Virus record (IMG/VR): IMGVR_UViG_3300006028_000026
Coordinates: 1-32,219 of that record
Direction: 5' to 3' (one strand)
Length of the DNA: 32,219 bases
DNA from: a virus
Positions 15,289-32,219 of this stretch are shown in pieces. The notes beneath the pieces are model-generated. The model was not told the DNA's origin and did no database searches. It saw nothing but the letters and a program-made list of their open reading frames with translations. Every line of letters begins with the position of its first letter. Positions within the stretch are counted from its first letter, which is position 1. Made by a program: the position numbers and the translations under genes.

Positions 15289-15816
15289 ATGCCGCGCGCT
15301 GACATCCGGGTGGGCCTGGGCTCACGCGGCGCGTCCCTGCGGGTCATCGCCCGTGAGCTGCGGGGCATGGACGGCCGGAAGGTGAAGGGGATCTTCAAGG
15401 ACGCCCTCGAAGGCGCCGCCCGGCCCTACCCGGCGCGGGTCCGGGCGTCGGTGCTGGCGATCCCGGTGAAGGAAGGCGGCAAGCACACGGGGCTGCGCGC
15501 CCGGATCGCCCAGTGCGTGGAGCTTTCCTCTGGCACGGACGCCAAGGGCGCGTATGCGTCGGTGTGGGTGAACCCGTTCCGGATGCTGCCCGACTACGTC
15601 ACCCTGCCGTTGTACATGCAGGGCGTGAGCGAGGGGCGGCTGCGCCGTTATGACCGGTGGCGGCACCCGGTGTACCAGACTGCCCGGAACCCGGACACGT
15701 GGCGGCAGCAGTCCTCCCACCCGTACTTCTACCAGGCCGCCGAGCCACTCGGCCGCGCTGCCGGGGAGGCGCTGAAGGCGGCGCTGGAGGACATCACGAG
15801 GAAACTTAACGGGTGA
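15289..15816 (+). CDS. Neck or minor tail component (HK97 gp10-like candidate)
   Basis: A 175-residue basic protein starting MPRADIRVGLGSRGASLRV, with ATG two bases after the tail protein stop. It has a helix (KVKGIFKDALEGAARPYPAR), a strand region (AYASVWVNPFRMLPDYVTLP) and RRYDRWRHPVYQTARNPDTW with an aromatic HPYFYQAAEPL. Basic R-W-R-H-P elements near the end resemble gp10-type neck proteins, but the similarity is weak. The last codons before TGA are AGG AAA CTT AAC GGG, unlike the G/C-ending codons before them, and the endonuclease VII-like gene on the other strand overlaps this end by 11 nt. Confidence 0.6.
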   Translation: MPRADIRVGLGSRGASLRVIARELRGMDGRKVKGIFKDALEGAARPYPARVRASVLAIPVKEGGKHTGLRARIAQCVELSSGTDAKGAYASVWVNPFRMLPDYVTLPLYMQGVSEGRLRRYDRWRHPVYQTARNPDTWRQQSSHPYFYQAAEPLGRAAGEALKAALEDITRKLNG

Positions 15817-16297
15817 TCTGAAACAAGGGCACCTGCAGGGCGGCGATCTTGCGCCGCTCAACTTCTGCCTGTGCGGTCTCCAGTGCGTCGGCCATGCGGC
15901 GCAACAGGGCTGGATCATCACCGGCGAACCCGATCGCCGCATTGCAGAGGTTATGAGCGATGCCCCGGCGGCAGATTGCACATGACTTGTTCTGGGGGCA
16001 GCAATCATGGTCATGATCCATGGTTACGTCGCCGGACAGAGCCTCTCCGCAGAGGTAGCACCGTCCACCTTGGGCATTCCACAGGGTCGCCAAGTCCTCT
16101 GGTTGCATCCCATGGCGACGGCGGGCGTTGTCAGCAGCGATCTTGGATCGGCTGCGGCTTTCCCGCTTCTTTTCGATGATCTTCGTGCGGTTCTGCCTGT
16201 AGTGCGCACTTTTCTTGGCAAGAGTCTCCGCCCGGTTGGCCGCATAGTACTCACGGTTGTATTCGCGTTTCCGGGTCTGCGCATCCTCAGATGTCAA
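15806..16297 (-). CDS. Endonuclease VII-like HNH protein (copy 1)
   Basis: A 163-residue protein. The start is TTG 16297, chosen because TTGA overlaps the upstream stop and because the length then equals that of the paralogue at 20247. The N-terminus is a basic helix (KREYNREYYAANRAETLAKK), followed by the metal-binding nuclease core: GGRCYLCGEAL, DHDHDCCPQNKSCAICRRGI and AHNLCNAAIGFAGDDPALLR. The DHDH and the paired CxxC / CxxCN ligands are the marks of the T4 gp49-type endonuclease VII family, which cuts branched DNA. Free-standing copies scattered among phage genes behave like homing elements. It is last in a four-gene overlapping minus-strand cassette. Family is firm; whether it resolves junctions or homes is inferred. 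Confidence 0.85.
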   Translation of the reverse strand: MTSEDAQTRKREYNREYYAANRAETLAKKSAHYRQNRTKIIEKKRESRSRSKIAADNARRRHGMQPEDLATLWNAQGGRCYLCGEALSGDVTMDHDHDCCPQNKSCAICRRGIAHNLCNAAIGFAGDDPALLRRMADALETAQAEVERRKIAALQVPLFQITR

Positions 16298-16500
16298 CGG
16301 CTGACCGGCTCCCCCACGGCGGGGCGGCTGCGGCAGGCCATTACCAGGGCCCAGATCCACGGCACGATCAGGAACGCGAACAGGTTGATGACGGTCACCC
16401 GGCCGCGGTGGGGGGCTGGCCGTGCCCACGCGATGATCGCCGGGGTGAAGTAGACGGCGAACGCGGCGAGCCAGATGAGTGCGTGAATGGGGCTGTTCAT
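16294..16500 (-). CDS. Superinfection-immunity-like membrane protein (T4 Imm type)
   Basis: A 68-residue protein with ATG in an ATGA overlap with the RHH gene. It has two membrane segments (about 6-25, WLAAFAVYFTPAIIAWA; and 36-56, VTVINLFAFLIVPWIWALVM) joined by a short basic loop (RPAPHRGR). The pattern YFxPxIIA...basic...xxNLF...WIWALV is that of the superinfection immunity family named after T4 Imm, whose members block DNA entry of related phages at the cell membrane. The size matches the family. Here it is flanked by an RHH protein and an endonuclease in one overlapping unit, which suggests a phage-versus-phage competition cassette. Family match is by pattern only. Confidence 0.75.
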   Translation of the reverse strand: MNSPIHALIWLAAFAVYFTPAIIAWARPAPHRGRVTVINLFAFLIVPWIWALVMACRSRPAVGEPVSR

Positions 16501-16664
16501 GACCGCTCCCTTGCCGCAGCCAGCGCGCTGCTGCGGATGAACTCGGAGAGGCTGCTGATGTTCCGGGCGCGGGCGGCGGCCTCTAGCGTGGCCCGTTCCT
16601 CGGGCAGCAGCCGCAGGGCGATGAGCACCGTGCGCTGCCGCGACTCGGAATGCTTTCTAGGCAA
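16497..16664 (-). CDS. Small ribbon-helix-helix protein
   Basis: A 55-residue protein from TTG 16664, the only usable start, since a stop (TGA) lies three codons upstream in frame. The basic N-terminus (PRKHSESRQR) is followed by the strand TVLIALRLL, helix PEERATLEAAARARN and helix SLSEFIRSSALAAARER, the RHH/MobC-like arrangement. It overlaps the previous gene by 8 nt and the Imm-like gene by 4. Such proteins usually bind paired short sites. Two GGTTATACC copies 21 bp apart lie over the cassette promoter, so autorepression is a reasonable inference. Confidence 0.7.
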   Translation of the reverse strand: MPRKHSESRQRTVLIALRLLPEERATLEAAARARNISSLSEFIRSSALAAARERS

Positions 16665-16824
16665 GGTCGTTCAGCACTTCGGGCACGCGCCGGACAGCCT
16701 GCCAGAATCCCGAGTGGCATGGGCAGTCGCACGACTGGTCACAGCACCCGCCAGGGCTTTCCTCGTGCTTGCCCTCGTCGCAGGGTGTCCGGTGGTCGGT
16801 CTCACGCCCAAGGCTGTCTTTCAT
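16657..16824 (-). CDS. Cys-rich small protein, first gene of the Imm/endonuclease cassette
   Basis: A 55-residue protein from ATG 16824, behind a GA-rich ribosome binding site (GAGAGAGAGAG). The first half is charged (MKDSLGRETDHRTPCDEGKH). The middle has a dense Cys/His cluster (CCDQSCDCPCHSGFW) able to bind zinc or iron, and the end is a helix (AVRRVPEVLNDLA). No family recognised. It opens the cassette and overlaps the RHH gene by 8 nt (TTGCCTAG). Confidence 0.6.
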   Translation of the reverse strand: MKDSLGRETDHRTPCDEGKHEESPGGCCDQSCDCPCHSGFWQAVRRVPEVLNDLA

Positions 16825-16846
16825 CTCGCGTCTCTCTCTCTCTTGT

Positions 16847-16876
16847 GGTTATACCGTCAGCTTACGCGGTTATACC
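16847..16876. promoter_or_regulatory. Paired operator sites GGTTATACC over the cassette promoter
   Basis: The 9-mer GGTTATACC occurs at 16847-16855 and 16868-16876, 21 bp apart (two helical turns). Each is a near palindrome (GGT-3 nt-ACC), and the second extends to GCGGT-3 nt-ACCGC. One copy lies between the -35 and -10 of the minus-strand promoter, the other at the expected transcription start. This is a typical layout for repression by a dimeric regulator such as the RHH protein encoded just downstream. The sites are seen; the binding protein is inferred. Confidence 0.6.
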
Positions 16877-16886
16877 GCGCTGTCAA
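16859..16886 (-). promoter_or_regulatory. Promoter of the minus-strand Imm/RHH/endonuclease cassette
   Basis: On the minus strand, TTGACA (16886-16881), a 16-bp spacer and TAAGCT (16864-16859) form a recognisable sigma-70/HrdB-type promoter facing the gene at 16824. The start point would fall near 16852. The -35 end lies only a few bases before the Shine-Dalgarno of the plus-strand chaperone gene. Confidence 0.55.
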
Positions 16887-16897
16887 CCGGAGACTTC

Positions 16898-17329
16898 ATG
16901 CGCCTGTCCAAGGAAGACATCCTCAAGGCCGAAGACCTCGGCACCGAAGAGGTTGAGTGCCCGGAATGGGGCGGCTCGGTCCTGGTGCGCGGCATGACGG
17001 GCCGGGAGCGGGACGCGTTCGAGGTGTCGCTGATGCAGCCCGGCCGCGGTGGCCGGCGGGAGATGAACCCGGCGAACGTCCGCGCCAAGGTCGTGGTCCG
17101 GTGCGTGGTCGACGACGACGGGAACCGGCTGTTCACCGACGCGGACGCCACCGAGCTCGGGGCGAAGTCGGCGGCGGCGGTGGACCGGGTGTACGAGGTC
17201 GCGGCGCGGCTGTCGGGGATGTCGGACGATGACCAGGCGGAGCTGGTGCGGGATTTCGCGCTGGCGGATGGCGGCGGTTCACCTACGGCCTCGCCGCCCG
17301 CCTCGGCAAGACGGTCGAAGAGCTCCTGA
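16898..17329 (+). CDS. Tail assembly chaperone (gpG-like)
   Basis: A 143-residue protein from ATG 16898 behind CCGGAGAC. It begins MRLSKEDILKAEDLGTEEVE, then WGGSVLVRGMTGRERDAFEV and VVVRCVVDDDGNRLFTDADA, ending in the helix MSDDDQAELVRDFAL, which is standard for the first of two chaperones that coat the tape measure protein during tail assembly. It lies directly upstream of the tape measure gene. Its last ~20 codons overlap a second frame that continues with chaperone-like sequence, so a longer fused product is expected. The call rests on sequence pattern and gene order together. Confidence 0.8.
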   Translation: MRLSKEDILKAEDLGTEEVECPEWGGSVLVRGMTGRERDAFEVSLMQPGRGGRREMNPANVRAKVVVRCVVDDDGNRLFTDADATELGAKSAAAVDRVYEVAARLSGMSDDDQAELVRDFALADGGGSPTASPPASARRSKSS

Positions 17330-20246: not shown

Positions 20247-20738
20247 GTGTCACGCAAGGATCGGCGTGAATATTACCGCCAGTACTACGCGGCCAACGTT
20301 GAACGTAAGCGGGAGTATGCCCGCAAGCGCCGCCAAGAACACCCGGGTCTCTATCGCGAAAAACAGGTGGCAGTCAATAAACGCGCGAAGATACGGGCGC
20401 GGGCGCGGGGCTACAAGGAGCCGTGCGTTCTTGAGCGTGAGCAGGTAATAGCCGCCTACTGGCATGCGCAGGGCGGCTGCTGCTACCTCTGCGCCGAGCC
20501 CCTGCTGCTCGAAGAGGCGATCCTAGAGCACGATCATCGCTGCTGCCCGAACCGCAAGTGGTGCTCACGCTGCGTCCGTGGGGCCGCCCATTCCTCATGC
20601 AACGCTGCGATCGGCTACGTCCTAGACGATCCAGATCGGCTGGAAACTATCGCGCGTAACCTGCGCGCCAAGCTCGCCGAGATGGATGACCGCCTGGCGG
20701 CGAAGTCTCAGCAGCTCACCTTGGATGACGTGGCCTAG
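20247..20738 (+). CDS. Endonuclease VII-like HNH protein (copy 2)
   Basis: A 163-residue protein from GTG 20247, the same length as the minus-strand copy at 15806. The basic N-terminal helix (SRKDRREYYRQYYAANVERK) is followed by the core: GGCCYLCAEPL, EHDHRCCPNRKWCSRCVRGA and AHSSCNAAIGYVLDDPDRLE. The first Asp of the DHDH motif is Glu here, while His-Asp-His and all paired cysteines remain. The Cys ligands should bind a structural zinc and the His/Asp cluster the catalytic metal. It sits between the tape measure and minor tail genes, in their direction, with more A/T than either. It is probably a free-standing homing-type nuclease derived from, or sharing origin with, copy 1. Confidence 0.85.
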   Translation: MSRKDRREYYRQYYAANVERKREYARKRRQEHPGLYREKQVAVNKRAKIRARARGYKEPCVLEREQVIAAYWHAQGGCCYLCAEPLLLEEAILEHDHRCCPNRKWCSRCVRGAAHSSCNAAIGYVLDDPDRLETIARNLRAKLAEMDDRLAAKSQQLTLDDVA

Positions 20739-29451: not shown

Positions 29452-31280
29452 CGGCGGCTCGCGTCGAACGCCGCGATCTCGTCCGCCAGGAACAAGTCCG
29501 CGTTCCCGTCCCGGGCCACAGGAAGCGGAGACATCCGCTCGCCCTCCGGCCGCTGCCGGTCCCGCCACATCGCCATCTTCAGCCCCGCCCACGTCGTCCC
29601 CGGGCCCACGTAGCCGCGCTCCACCGCCTGCTTCAGCGTCACCATCACCCGCGGCCCGGCCGTAACCGGAAGGGGGGGTGTAACAGTTACATCCGCTGGT
29701 GAGGGGCCACTGTCAAGACCCGGGATTCCGGTAACAAGCGAGCGGGGGACCGTCGACGGCAGTCGCCCGATGTTCCCCGCAAGCACCAGCGCCCGCGCCA
29801 TCACCGGGTCAAGCTGCGGCGTCTGGACCTCGCGGACACCGCCAGAAGTCACCAGCTGGAAGCGGCCGACCTGTGTCGGCGACGGCGGCATCGGGGTGTC
29901 GCCGCACATCATCTTCCACGTCGGCGCCTCGTACCGGGTCAGCAGCTTGATCCCGCACTGCGACCGCACACTGGAGTCCTTGCTGCCCGTCACCTCGGCG
30001 GTCAGGGCCTGCCCGATCAGCACCAGGTGCTTGCGGACCTGCCGCCCGGCGAAAGCATCCTCGCCGAGCCCGGTCAGCGCGGGGGACTTCGCCGGGTCGT
30101 CCGGGCCCTTGTTCTTCCCCCAGTACTGCTTCAGCCGGGGCACCGCCAGGTTCAGCTCCTCCGCCAGGGTGAACTGCCGCGCGCCGACGTTCGCGTGCAC
30201 CCTGCCCGTGGTGTCCATCCCCGCGAACGCCACGTCGCCGCGCCGGTCCAGCTCCTCCGACAGCCAGCACATCCCGTCGTGCAGCTGCTCCGTCGTCCAG
30301 GCGTAGGCGACGTTCGGCAGCTGCACGAGGTTGCGGTCCATGTCCTTCAGGATCCACGGGTAGGACAGCCGCCGCTTCGCGTCCAGGACCAGGCCGATAC
30401 CACCCCTGAGCAGCACTTGCAGCAGCAGCCACCCGCCTATGTTGCTCTTCGTCCCGCCCGTGCCCGCGGCGATGGCGACGTGTGGGCTGTCGGTGTCCAG
30501 GGACGCCGTGACGAGCTCCTCGCCCTTCCCGACCCCGGCCAGCAGCTCGTGCTCCTTGCACTTGCGCATCTCGTCGAGCAGGTCGGCCATCCTCACGTGC
30601 CCCGGCGGCGGCGGGGAGTGCCGCAGCACCAGCAGCGGCACCGGGCCGTCCTTGCGCCACGTCACCTTCGGCGACTCGATGGCCGCCTTCGCGCCGACGA
30701 TCGCCGCCAGGCGCTGCTCGTCCCGGGCGTCCGACGGCCACCCCGCGGGCAGGCACAGGGTCACGCCGAGGATGCCGCCGCCGGCGTCGAGCTCGGGCTT
30801 GATCCACGACTCCGCCCGGGTCGCGCGGGGGATGCCGGCCACCTGGTGGGCGGCCAGGTGCAGCGGGAACAGCACCGACCGGCGCATCCCGCGGCCCTGC
30901 AGCCGCCGCCACGCCAGGAACGCCAGGAACCCAGCCGAAACGAACAATAGACATACAACTACCAGCACCGTGACCTGCGCGTTCACCAGGAACGCCACGA
31001 CCACGACCAGGAACCCCAGTGTGCCGCCCGTCCGGTGCACCGTCCGCTTCCACCGGGGCAAGTGCTGCCAGCGGGTCGCGTGGCCGGTCGGCGTCAGGGC
31101 CCGCTGGCCGTGGCGGAGCCAGCCCGCGTCGGTGACGTGGTGGCCGTGCAAAGGGTGGCCGGTCAGGAACCGCCAGCCGAAGATAAGGAACTTCTGGCCG
31201 AGGAACCAGCCGCGGATGCGGTGCACGCTGTAACCGGTGACCGTAACGATCACCAGCGCGGCGGTTACAGGGCCGATCAT
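29448..31280 (-). CDS. TraB/FtsK-like DNA translocase
   Basis: A 610-residue protein from ATG 31280 (ATGA overlap with the gene upstream; a longer frame to 31391 lies inside that gene). Residues ~1-16 and ~83-121 hold hydrophobic segments (VTAALVIVTVTG; LGFLVVVVAFLVNAQVTVLV), so the N-terminus is membrane-bound. The ATPase core has HVAIAAGTGGTKSNIGGWLL near 271 (P-loop), LVLDAKRRLSYPW, and KHLVLIGQALTAEVTGSKDS (~415-434), the strand-and-sensor region of the TraB/FtsK group, then APTWKMMCGD. The P-loop is AGTGGTKSN, where most relatives have G-x-x-G-x-G-K-S; Lys-Ser is kept. In actinobacterial conjugative elements such proteins pump double-stranded DNA between cells. Here it may serve transfer, or segregation of a phage-plasmid. 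Confidence 0.85.
   Translation of the reverse strand: MIGPVTAALVIVTVTGYSVHRIRGWFLGQKFLIFGWRFLTGHPLHGHHVTDAGWLRHGQRALTPTGHATRWQHLPRWKRTVHRTGGTLGFLVVVVAFLVNAQVTVLVVVCLLFVSAGFLAFLAWRRLQGRGMRRSVLFPLHLAAHQVAGIPRATRAESWIKPELDAGGGILGVTLCLPAGWPSDARDEQRLAAIVGAKAAIESPKVTWRKDGPVPLLVLRHSPPPPGHVRMADLLDEMRKCKEHELLAGVGKGEELVTASLDTDSPHVAIAAGTGGTKSNIGGWLLLQVLLRGGIGLVLDAKRRLSYPWILKDMDRNLVQLPNVAYAWTTEQLHDGMCWLSEELDRRGDVAFAGMDTTGRVHANVGARQFTLAEELNLAVPRLKQYWGKNKGPDDPAKSPALTGLGEDAFAGRQVRKHLVLIGQALTAEVTGSKDSSVRSQCGIKLLTRYEAPTWKMMCGDTPMPPSPTQVGRFQLVTSGGVREVQTPQLDPVMARALVLAGNIGRLPSTVPRSLVTGIPGLDSGPSPADVTVTPPLPVTAGPRVMVTLKQAVERGYVGPGTTWAGLKMAMWRDRQRPEGERMSPLPVARDGNADLFLADEIAAFDASRR
29662..29735. repeat. GTAAC/GTTAC cluster near the 3' end of the translocase gene
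   Basis: GTAAC or GTTAC occurs at 29662-29666, 29680-29684, 29686-29690 and 29731-29735. The middle two form a perfect palindrome, TGTAACAGTTACA (29679-29691). The motifs use codons rare in this DNA, which suggests selection on the DNA itself. Confidence 0.5.
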
Positions 31281-31329
31281 CCTGCCAGGCCGCCTGTTAC
31301 CGCTGTTACGGCCGGGACGGGAGGGTAAC
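31230..31329. repeat. GTAAC/GTTAC cluster across the start of the translocase gene
   Basis: Six copies in 100 bp: 31230-31234, 31243-31247, 31264-31268, 31296-31300, 31305-31309 and 31325-31329. They span the end of the HNH-like gene and the first codons of the translocase gene. Same motif as the cluster at 29662. Confidence 0.5.
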
Positions 31330-31651
31330 CTCTGCTTCTCTCTTCCTTCTTCTCTCCCTTGTCCCTCTCGTTCTGTCTCTTCGACCCCCAACAGACCCTG
31401 TCGGGTCTGTTATCGGTGACTCCGTCACCGAGGTGACGGACCTGCGGTGCTCCGTGCCAGGCCATGCACACGATCTCGGCGTGGCTGTACCACTGGCCGC
31501 GGTGCTTCGACCGCAGGTAGCCGTCCTTGTCCGGCGTCCCCTCGCGCACCTTGCCCTCGATGCGGACCCGGCCGAGCGACGACCCCTCGAACACGCCGCC
31601 CGGGTAGCCCATCCGCCGCGACGCGCGCACCTTCCGCCACGCCTCAGCCAT
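31277..31651 (-). CDS. NUMOD4/HNH-like protein between DUF2637 and translocase genes
   Basis: A 124-residue protein from ATG 31651, overlapping the upstream gene by 8 nt (ATGGCTGA) and the translocase by 4. The N-terminus AEAWRKVRASRRMGYPGGVF and SSLGRVRIEGKVREG resemble a NUMOD4 motif (WxxI...SxLGRVRS). GYLRSKHRGQWYSHAEIVCM and AWHGAPQVRHLGDGVTDNRP follow, then CWGSKRQNERDK, an HNH_3-like core. The usual N-L before W-G is R-V-C-W-G here, so activity is uncertain. The C-terminus is a purine-rich coded run (EKKEERSR). Either a homing-type nuclease captured in the operon, or a DNA-binding relative that works with the translocase. The Cys/His spacing differs from the endonuclease VII-like copies. 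Confidence 0.65.
   Translation of the reverse strand: MAEAWRKVRASRRMGYPGGVFEGSSLGRVRIEGKVREGTPDKDGYLRSKHRGQWYSHAEIVCMAWHGAPQVRHLGDGVTDNRPDRVCWGSKRQNERDKGEKKEERSRGYPPVPAVTAVTGGLAG
31390..31439. repeat. Tandem perfect palindromes inside the HNH-like gene
   Basis: AACAGACCC (31390-31398) and GGGTCTGTT (31403-31411) flank TGTC. TCGGTGAC (31413-31420) and GTCACCGA (31424-31431) flank TCC. CCGTCACC (31422-31429) also pairs with GGTGACGG (31432-31439). The second and third compete for the middle segment. They fall in the codons for the H...DNR part of the HNH core. Confidence 0.5.
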
Positions 31652-32219
31652 GGGCGGCCTGGCCGTTCGCGGACAGGGCGGCCCCGGCCGGGGCACCTTG
31701 GGGGGCGGGGACCAGCGCCCCGGCCGGGACCTGGGCAGCCGGGGCAGTCCCCGTGTGGGTCCTGGGGAAAGGACCGCCCCGGCTGCGCTCAGGGACTGCT
31801 TCCGTGGCAGCCGGGGCGGCGCCGCGGTGCCATCCAGGGACACCGCCCCGGCTGCGCTCTGCGGCGGCCTCCTTGCGCGCTTTCGCCGCCTCCGCGCGGG
31901 TGAGGCCAAAGTCGGCGCGGGCCTCGTTGTCGCTGTACCGGAAACGGCGGTCCATCGCCTCGCGCATGCGCGCTTTCGCCGCCTCAAAACTGGACGACGG
32001 AACCGTGCCGCCCTGGGTGGCCGGGGGCCCTGCCGGCCCATCGGTCAGGATTTCCCCGGCCACGTCTCCAGCGGGCGCGCTGCGGGCGCGGCGCACGTGC
32101 CACAGCACGACCTCGGCGGCGATGAAGAACACCACCGGCACGAAGCCGTCGATGATGGCGTCGAGCACCGAGTGGACCACGCCCGCGTACACGTTCATCG
32201 CCAGCGTCAGCGCGATCCC
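31644..32219 (-). CDS. DUF2637-like (Spd-type) membrane protein, 5' end outside the window
   Basis: 191 codons are visible; the frame is open at the window edge (GIALTLAMNVYAGVVHSVLD), so the Met at 32198 is probably internal. Two hydrophobic stretches (the part above, and FVPVVFFIAAEVVLW near 27-41 of the visible part) match the membrane half of DUF2637 proteins, which accompany TraB in actinobacterial conjugative elements and are thought to help spread within mycelium. A cytoplasmic part follows with a helical DNA-binding-like segment (AAKARMREAMDRRFRYSDNE, then DFGLTRAEAAKARKEAA), then Pro/Ala-rich sequence with ERSRGG twice. It is the first visible gene of the operon. Family call rests on the membrane segment pattern and neighbours. 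Confidence 0.7.
   Translation of the reverse strand, partial: GIALTLAMNVYAGVVHSVLDAIIDGFVPVVFFIAAEVVLWHVRRARSAPAGDVAGEILTDGPAGPPATQGGTVPSSSFEAAKARMREAMDRRFRYSDNEARADFGLTRAEAAKARKEAAAERSRGGVPGWHRGAAPAATEAVPERSRGGPFPRTHTGTAPAAQVPAGALVPAPQGAPAGAALSANGQAAHG
31773..31859. repeat. 18-bp direct repeat with an inverted 13-bp copy between
   Basis: ACCGCCCCGGCTGCGCTC occurs at 31773-31790 and 31842-31859. Its core CCGCCCCGGCTGC is present inverted (GCAGCCGGGGCGG) at 31807-31819, so the inverted copy can pair with either. It encodes the ERSRGG-type repeats of the DUF2637-like protein. Confidence 0.6.

Follow-up and report, generated by a model that had tools for sequence, protein, structure and literature searches.

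The window, as we here call the whole analyzed stretch of 32,219 nucleotides of viral DNA, carries a slot bordered by a tail-module gene and a tail assembly chaperone gene, both on the plus strand, with four open reading frames (ORFs) on the minus strand between them. The features of this island, ordered by position, were as follows.

15289..15816, plus strand: tail-module gene bordering the slot (phrog_11991)
15806..15816, minus strand: live 3' end of the tail gene, reading TCACCCGTTAA on this strand and overlapped by the stop of the nuclease gene (motif comparison)
15806..16297, minus strand: endonuclease VII (EndoVII) homologue, 163 aa, TTG start (PF02945, 5e-13; atypical codon usage)
16294..16304, minus strand: fossil copy of the 3' end of the tail gene, TCAGCCGTTGA, located where imm ends (motif comparison)
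16294..16500, minus strand: 68-aa protein of the Imm family with two predicted membrane segments (PF14373, 8e-8; hydropathy)
16497..16664, minus strand: RHH-A regulator, 55 aa, TTG start (PF21983, 1.1e-7; PF08681, 2.5e-5; dN/dS 0.08–0.29)
16657..16824, minus strand: Cys-rich ORF, 55 aa, possibly not coding (ORF reading; no relatives; codon usage does not set it apart from non-coding frames)
16847..16855, minus strand: second operator-like box, GGTATAACC, directly following the -10 hexamer, where transcription is expected to start; perfect in four phages
16859..16864, minus strand: -10 hexamer TAAGCT (sequence; TANNNT across the four RHH-A phages)
16868..16876, minus strand: first operator-like box, GGTATAACC, lying within the spacer of the promoter; perfect in four phages
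16881..16886, minus strand: -35 hexamer TTGACA (sequence; conserved in L003, L004 and L005)
16898..17329, plus strand: tail assembly chaperone bordering the slot (phrog_344)

A first-pass annotation of the window had described four overlapping minus-strand genes among tail genes, and this layout was confirmed, with overlaps of 8, 4 and 4 nt in the order cys, rhh, imm and EndoVII and with the 3' end of EndoVII overlapping the convergent end of the tail gene (15816) by 11 nt. The TTG start of rhh is the same codon as an ATG in three siblings, and that of EndoVII, at 16297, aligns with the M of MTSEDAR in the L015 homologue. No island protein had an NCBIfam match above cut-off, PADLOC gave no match for the RHH or Imm protein and linked the nuclease only weakly to HNH effectors, and an Rfam scan of the island and its siblings returned no family. 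The Cys-rich ORF had no relatives among the viral contigs or phages and no Pfam or PHROG match, its CopL-like NCBIfam match (E 0.1) being below cut-off, and its codon usage scored no better in its own frame (-0.277 per codon) than in an antisense frame (-0.285), such that it may be non-coding.

The third ORF had been proposed to encode an Imm-type membrane protein, and profile searches supported this proposal. It matched columns 1–42 of the 42 in PF14373 at 32.5 bits, above the cut-off of 27.9, while T4 Imm as positive control matched the same columns at 7e-16 and none of 14 control genomes gave any match. Identity to T4 Imm was 19%, with Y17, P20, R27 and W48 common to both. The two proteins are thereby alike in matching the whole family model and in being small membrane proteins with two segments, whereas imm of T4 lies beside the polymerase and gene 42 in a lytic phage, with neither an RHH partner nor a slot in the tail module.

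For comparison with relatives, a scan with a chaperone alignment gave 42 viral contigs, and the interval was read in those that also had the upstream tail gene or the gene next to it. Reverse-strand genes occupied the slot in 16 distinct phages, the window included, and in all 16 they included a membrane protein, drawn from six unrelated groups. The Imm family was found in five (the window, L012, L014 (= L006), L019 and L021, with L014 counted by 84% identity), a small DUF4234-like protein termed g2 (matched weakly and under the cut-off) in L011, L013, L018 (= L005) and L020, a longer membrane protein termed memX in L015, L016 and L025, a DUF4190 protein in L010 (= L003), a lipoprotein-like cargo in L009 (= L004) and a membrane protein of 39–47 aa in L026 and L027. 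The lipoprotein-like cargo had no convincing match among PDB chains or PHROGs. Each representative cargo had a hydrophobic segment above 1.6, whereas outside the islands this was true of 12% of 319 comparably sized minus-strand ORFs; the L027 cargo, close to that of L026, was classed by reading, outside the hydropathy run. The membrane class is hence conserved at the slot while the cargo sequences change, and a characterized exclusion relative exists for only one of the six groups, with DUF4190 and DUF4234-like proteins having no known function. An architecture of RHH and membrane protein, with or without nuclease, recurred in many relatives, showing that the gene order is not unique to this phage.

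The isolated phages Dubu, phiSASD1, Jflix2, Shagrat and Madraxi, with chaperones about 50% identical, had no annotated reverse genes at the slot. In P1312, an annotated minus-strand ORF overlaps the preceding tail gene. In L012 (3961–5943), the bordering tail gene was not found before the island and a partial match lay downstream of the chaperone, which suggests a rearrangement; with the tail gene out of its normal position, the right border of that island is not comparable.

The RHH protein matched the NikA-like PF21983 and the TacA1 model PF08681 above their curated cut-offs, and RHH_1 and the RelB antitoxin model below theirs, profiles that support an RHH fold of the autorepressor (CopG/Arc) kind. 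The dN/dS of RHH-A, a rough estimate since the genes are short, points to purifying selection. Upstream lies a promoter of the form TTGACA-N16-TAAGCT, the -10 of which matches only three of the six consensus positions, explaining why a promoter scanner was silent on it, together with two operator-like boxes, read as GGTTATACC at 16847 and 16868, 21 bp apart and the sole exact copies in the window. The promoter and both boxes recurred exactly in three other phages sharing RHH-A, and are therefore more than a chance occurrence; neither promoter nor box was found elsewhere in these four records, and seven other records had no box. Across the four phages the inner -10 letters drift (TAAGCT, TATGGT, TACGGT, TAGTGT) with TANNNT kept and the promoter spacer constant at 16–17. 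The promoter and paired operators of the first-pass annotation consequently stand for the window, whereas the distance of 21 bp is not fixed in the siblings. Spacings of 21, 21, 23 and 24 led us to reject a fixed helical phasing of the operators.

An RHH-type protein, being one of four types, starts ten of the 16 islands. RHH-A (window, L009, L010 and L018) is paired with the two perfect GGTATAACC boxes, while RHH-B (L012, L015, L016 and L020), with only weak RHH profile matches, accompanies GGTACC repeats in a spacer of 37–50 nt (one to three exact copies; in L020 one plus AGTACC), RHH-C (L014) two TCATGA, and the Arc-like RHH-D (L025) an inverted TAGC/GCTA that was read by eye. The boxes, which are predicted operators, follow the RHH type in sequence, in keeping with the earlier assignment of an RHH gene with paired operator-like boxes, and two per promoter in the four RHH-A phages is the arrangement that would be expected of a CopG/Arc-like autorepressor acting on its own promoter. 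RHH-A was found with four different membrane proteins, and Imm with RHH-A, -B, -C or none, from which it follows that regulators and cargoes have been exchanged as modules within a constant plan.

The nuclease exceeded the PF02945 cut-off of 23.6 with 49.2 bits, and nucleases were present in three of the 16 islands (window, L015 and L016), that of L016 falling below the Pfam EndoVII model and matching EndoVII/HNH PHROGs. Where an island has no nuclease, the end of its membrane gene coincides with the 3' end of the tail gene or lies within a few nt of it, the minus-strand motif there being (TC/CT)A(G/C)CCGTTGA. All three islands with a nuclease have a copy of this motif at the end of the membrane gene, although the real tail-gene end is now found beyond the nuclease. 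The edit distances of the copies were 0 for TCAGCCGTTGA in the window, 2 for CTAGCCGCCGA in L015 and 2 for CTAAGCCGTTTGA in L016, as compared with random 22-nt stretches giving a distance of at most 2 in 1.4% and of 0 or 1 in none of 3000. The motif copy that precedes the nuclease in each of these three islands therefore shows that the nuclease arrived later than the membrane gene, at one and the same junction, and that it does not belong to the core of the locus. The junction without nuclease, in L014/L006 and others, identifies the empty site, as for a free-standing homing endonuclease, and insertion at one junction in three islands lends some support to the earlier view of the endonuclease as a selfish element. 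The proposal of a fixed four-gene unit, on the other hand, was not supported, as the Cys-rich ORF is private and possibly non-coding, the nuclease is a later arrival in a minority of islands and the membrane protein is exchangeable.

Similar genes were found at other positions. A second EndoVII (20247–20738, plus strand), 40% identical to that of the island and lying between the tape measure and the next gene, is likewise an insertion; L003 and L004 lack it and the flanking genes there abut or overlap by a few nt. Both copies are atypical in codon usage for the phage. A plus-strand EndoVII homologue in L013 (1892–2332), 42% identical to that of the island, marks another insertion point in the tail module, downstream of the chaperone. 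A third nuclease-like ORF in the window (31277–32041, minus strand) is an HNH endonuclease by PHROGs with a weak NUMOD4 match.

With regards to lifestyle, ORFs of about 480–540 aa with an N-terminal resolvase domain, which we read as putative large serine integrases, occurred in eight of the 16 records, seven of them above cut-off, and in all records above 37 kb except G014. The window itself had no integrase, which is uninformative because it ends 15.3 kb downstream of the chaperone start, before the expected position (in G001, about 15.9 kb downstream). A chaperone search in 84,980 genomes found no prophage. The phages of this family are uncultured and probably temperate, and the lineage is probably actinobacterial.

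The reading that we prefer, to which we assign a probability of roughly 0.6, is that we see in this island one allele of a modular moron slot for superinfection exclusion, autoregulated by RHH proteins and expressed from the prophage. This reading is based on the integrase in most relatives with long records together with the pattern of slot, RHH and membrane protein; that other phages are the ones excluded is suggested by the protein family, the slot and the probable temperate lifestyle, and by analogy with T4 Imm (PMC11436027), HK97 gp15, TP-J34 Ltp and Tuc2009 Sie2009 (PMC10883804) and Tab (PMC10884400). In a lysogen, the late genes would be silent and the reverse promoter of the island would fire, with the RHH protein binding the two boxes over promoter spacer and start site and holding its own operon low. 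The Imm protein, presumably in the cytoplasmic membrane, would stop DNA entry of an incoming related phage, as T4 Imm, HK97 gp15 and Ltp do. Once the prophage is induced, the island would be silenced by late transcription converging on it. As for the nuclease, it would be a free-standing mobile gene that settled at the 3' end of the tail gene, and by cutting that end in a co-infecting phage lacking the nuclease it could carry the neighbouring exclusion genes along. Counting against this model are the 19% identity to T4 Imm, the single cargo group of six with a characterized exclusion relative, the lack of an integrase in the window and of a prophage in the genomes searched, and the fact that T4 Imm works in a lytic phage and not from a prophage.

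Several known systems share parts of this plan. According to PMC10883804, HK97 gp15 is a small predicted inner-membrane protein of a temperate siphophage, encoded as a moron and blocking DNA injection. The island resembles it in encoding a small predicted membrane protein and, as would be expected of such a moron, has its own conserved promoter among late genes, is variably present and differs in cargo between relatives; unlike the island, gp15 is not described there with an RHH or exchangeable regulators, and we saw no sequence relation. In Gram-positive siphophages, the prophage-encoded Ltp and Sie2009 are anchored in the membrane and stop DNA from being injected, with escape from Ltp mapping to the tape measure (PMC10883804). 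The lipoprotein-like cargo of the sibling island L009 recalls them, although no sequence match was found for it. The Ltp and Sie2009 genes lie in the lysogeny module, not between tail genes. In the manner of free-standing phage endonucleases of the EndoVII/HNH kind, PF02945 homologues have inserted between genes at several points in these phages; the island nuclease differs in being co-operonic with a membrane-protein gene and overlapping it, in the same slot of three islands.

A more ambitious version, in which the incoming DNA is stalled by Imm and destroyed by the co-translated nuclease, and/or cleavage of the tail-gene 3' end of co-infecting relatives leads to the island being copied into them as a self-spreading exclusion unit, we hold to be unlikely. 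Its first part would make the island a split counterpart of SNIPE, which combines a place in the membrane with a nuclease to act on DNA as it is injected (PMC13190303); membrane protein and nuclease do share one operon in the island, but as separate proteins with no DUF4041 match and with the nuclease apparently inserted later. Alternatively, the cargoes could alter the host envelope or physiology and be unrelated to other phages, as the scarcity of characterized exclusion relatives and the functionally unassigned DUF4190 and DUF4234-like groups would allow. We see this as a minor possibility, as PF14373 is found in five of 16 islands and the membrane class is kept where sequences are not.

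Less probable still are two further explanations, both of which rank below the exclusion slot. The RHH protein could serve as the antitoxin to a toxin in the form of the small membrane protein, the pair stabilizing the prophage. The two-gene order with its 4-nt overlap, the small hydrophobic partner and the matches to TacA1 (above cut-off) and RelB (below) fit such a pair, but the RHH domain almost fills the 55-aa protein, leaving little tail for a toxin, and a specific antitoxin would not permit the free change of partners seen here, with one RHH beside unrelated partners and one partner beside several RHH types or none. Neither the toxin-binding tail nor the constant cognate toxin of a type II system was found, nor did PADLOC match either protein, and we consider this explanation distinctly improbable. 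Equally doubtful is defence at virion assembly, with the cargo blocking tail assembly of the superinfecting phage and its target next door (chaperone or tape measure). In Pseudomonas phage JBD26, the moron Tab lies on the minus strand within the late operon and is transcribed in the prophage from a promoter of its own; its action on assembly maps to the tape measure protein (PMC10884400). The island shares the strand and the own promoter among late genes, and the slot adjoins the chaperone gene. Tab, however, lies between terminase genes and has an anti-Tab gene, whereas no such partner is visible at the slot, which lies between tail gene and chaperone, and cargoes that are membrane proteins suit entry better than assembly.

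Each part of the proposed exclusion slot is of a known kind, while its constant plan with changing parts appears new; we found no description in the open-access literature of an exclusion slot with exchangeable cargo that is reverse-oriented and under RHH control. Morons for exclusion usually come to light singly, and one fixed address here gives candidates from six unrelated groups. As the candidates are many, and many come with a small regulator and a matching operator, one comparative cloning experiment can test many of them. The slot is also a natural set of RHH–operator pairs, and mobile nucleases beside the membrane-protein gene in three separate islands make a link between homing and superinfection exclusion testable.

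A final observation concerns the position of the Cys-rich ORF. In the window, the leader folded no better than shuffles (z -0.62), and a hidden RNA at this position is accordingly unsupported as well. Three siblings have a leader of about 155–210 nt there, between the RHH-A promoter and the RHH gene (L003:3826–3981, L004:3772–3978 and L005:3473–3653), which is a predicted structured RNA and an undescribed one, with no Rfam family and no occurrence in the isolated phages; its exact core 25-mer was found in these three contigs only. The middle segment differs in each of the three, with no convincing match for any of these variable parts, while two nearly invariant halves pair in a long closing stem. 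In the consensus fold, for which three sequences are thin evidence, the conserved part shows one clean compensatory pair and a few G–U changes, and the single-sequence folds beat shuffles with z of -5.9, -2.7 and -3.8.
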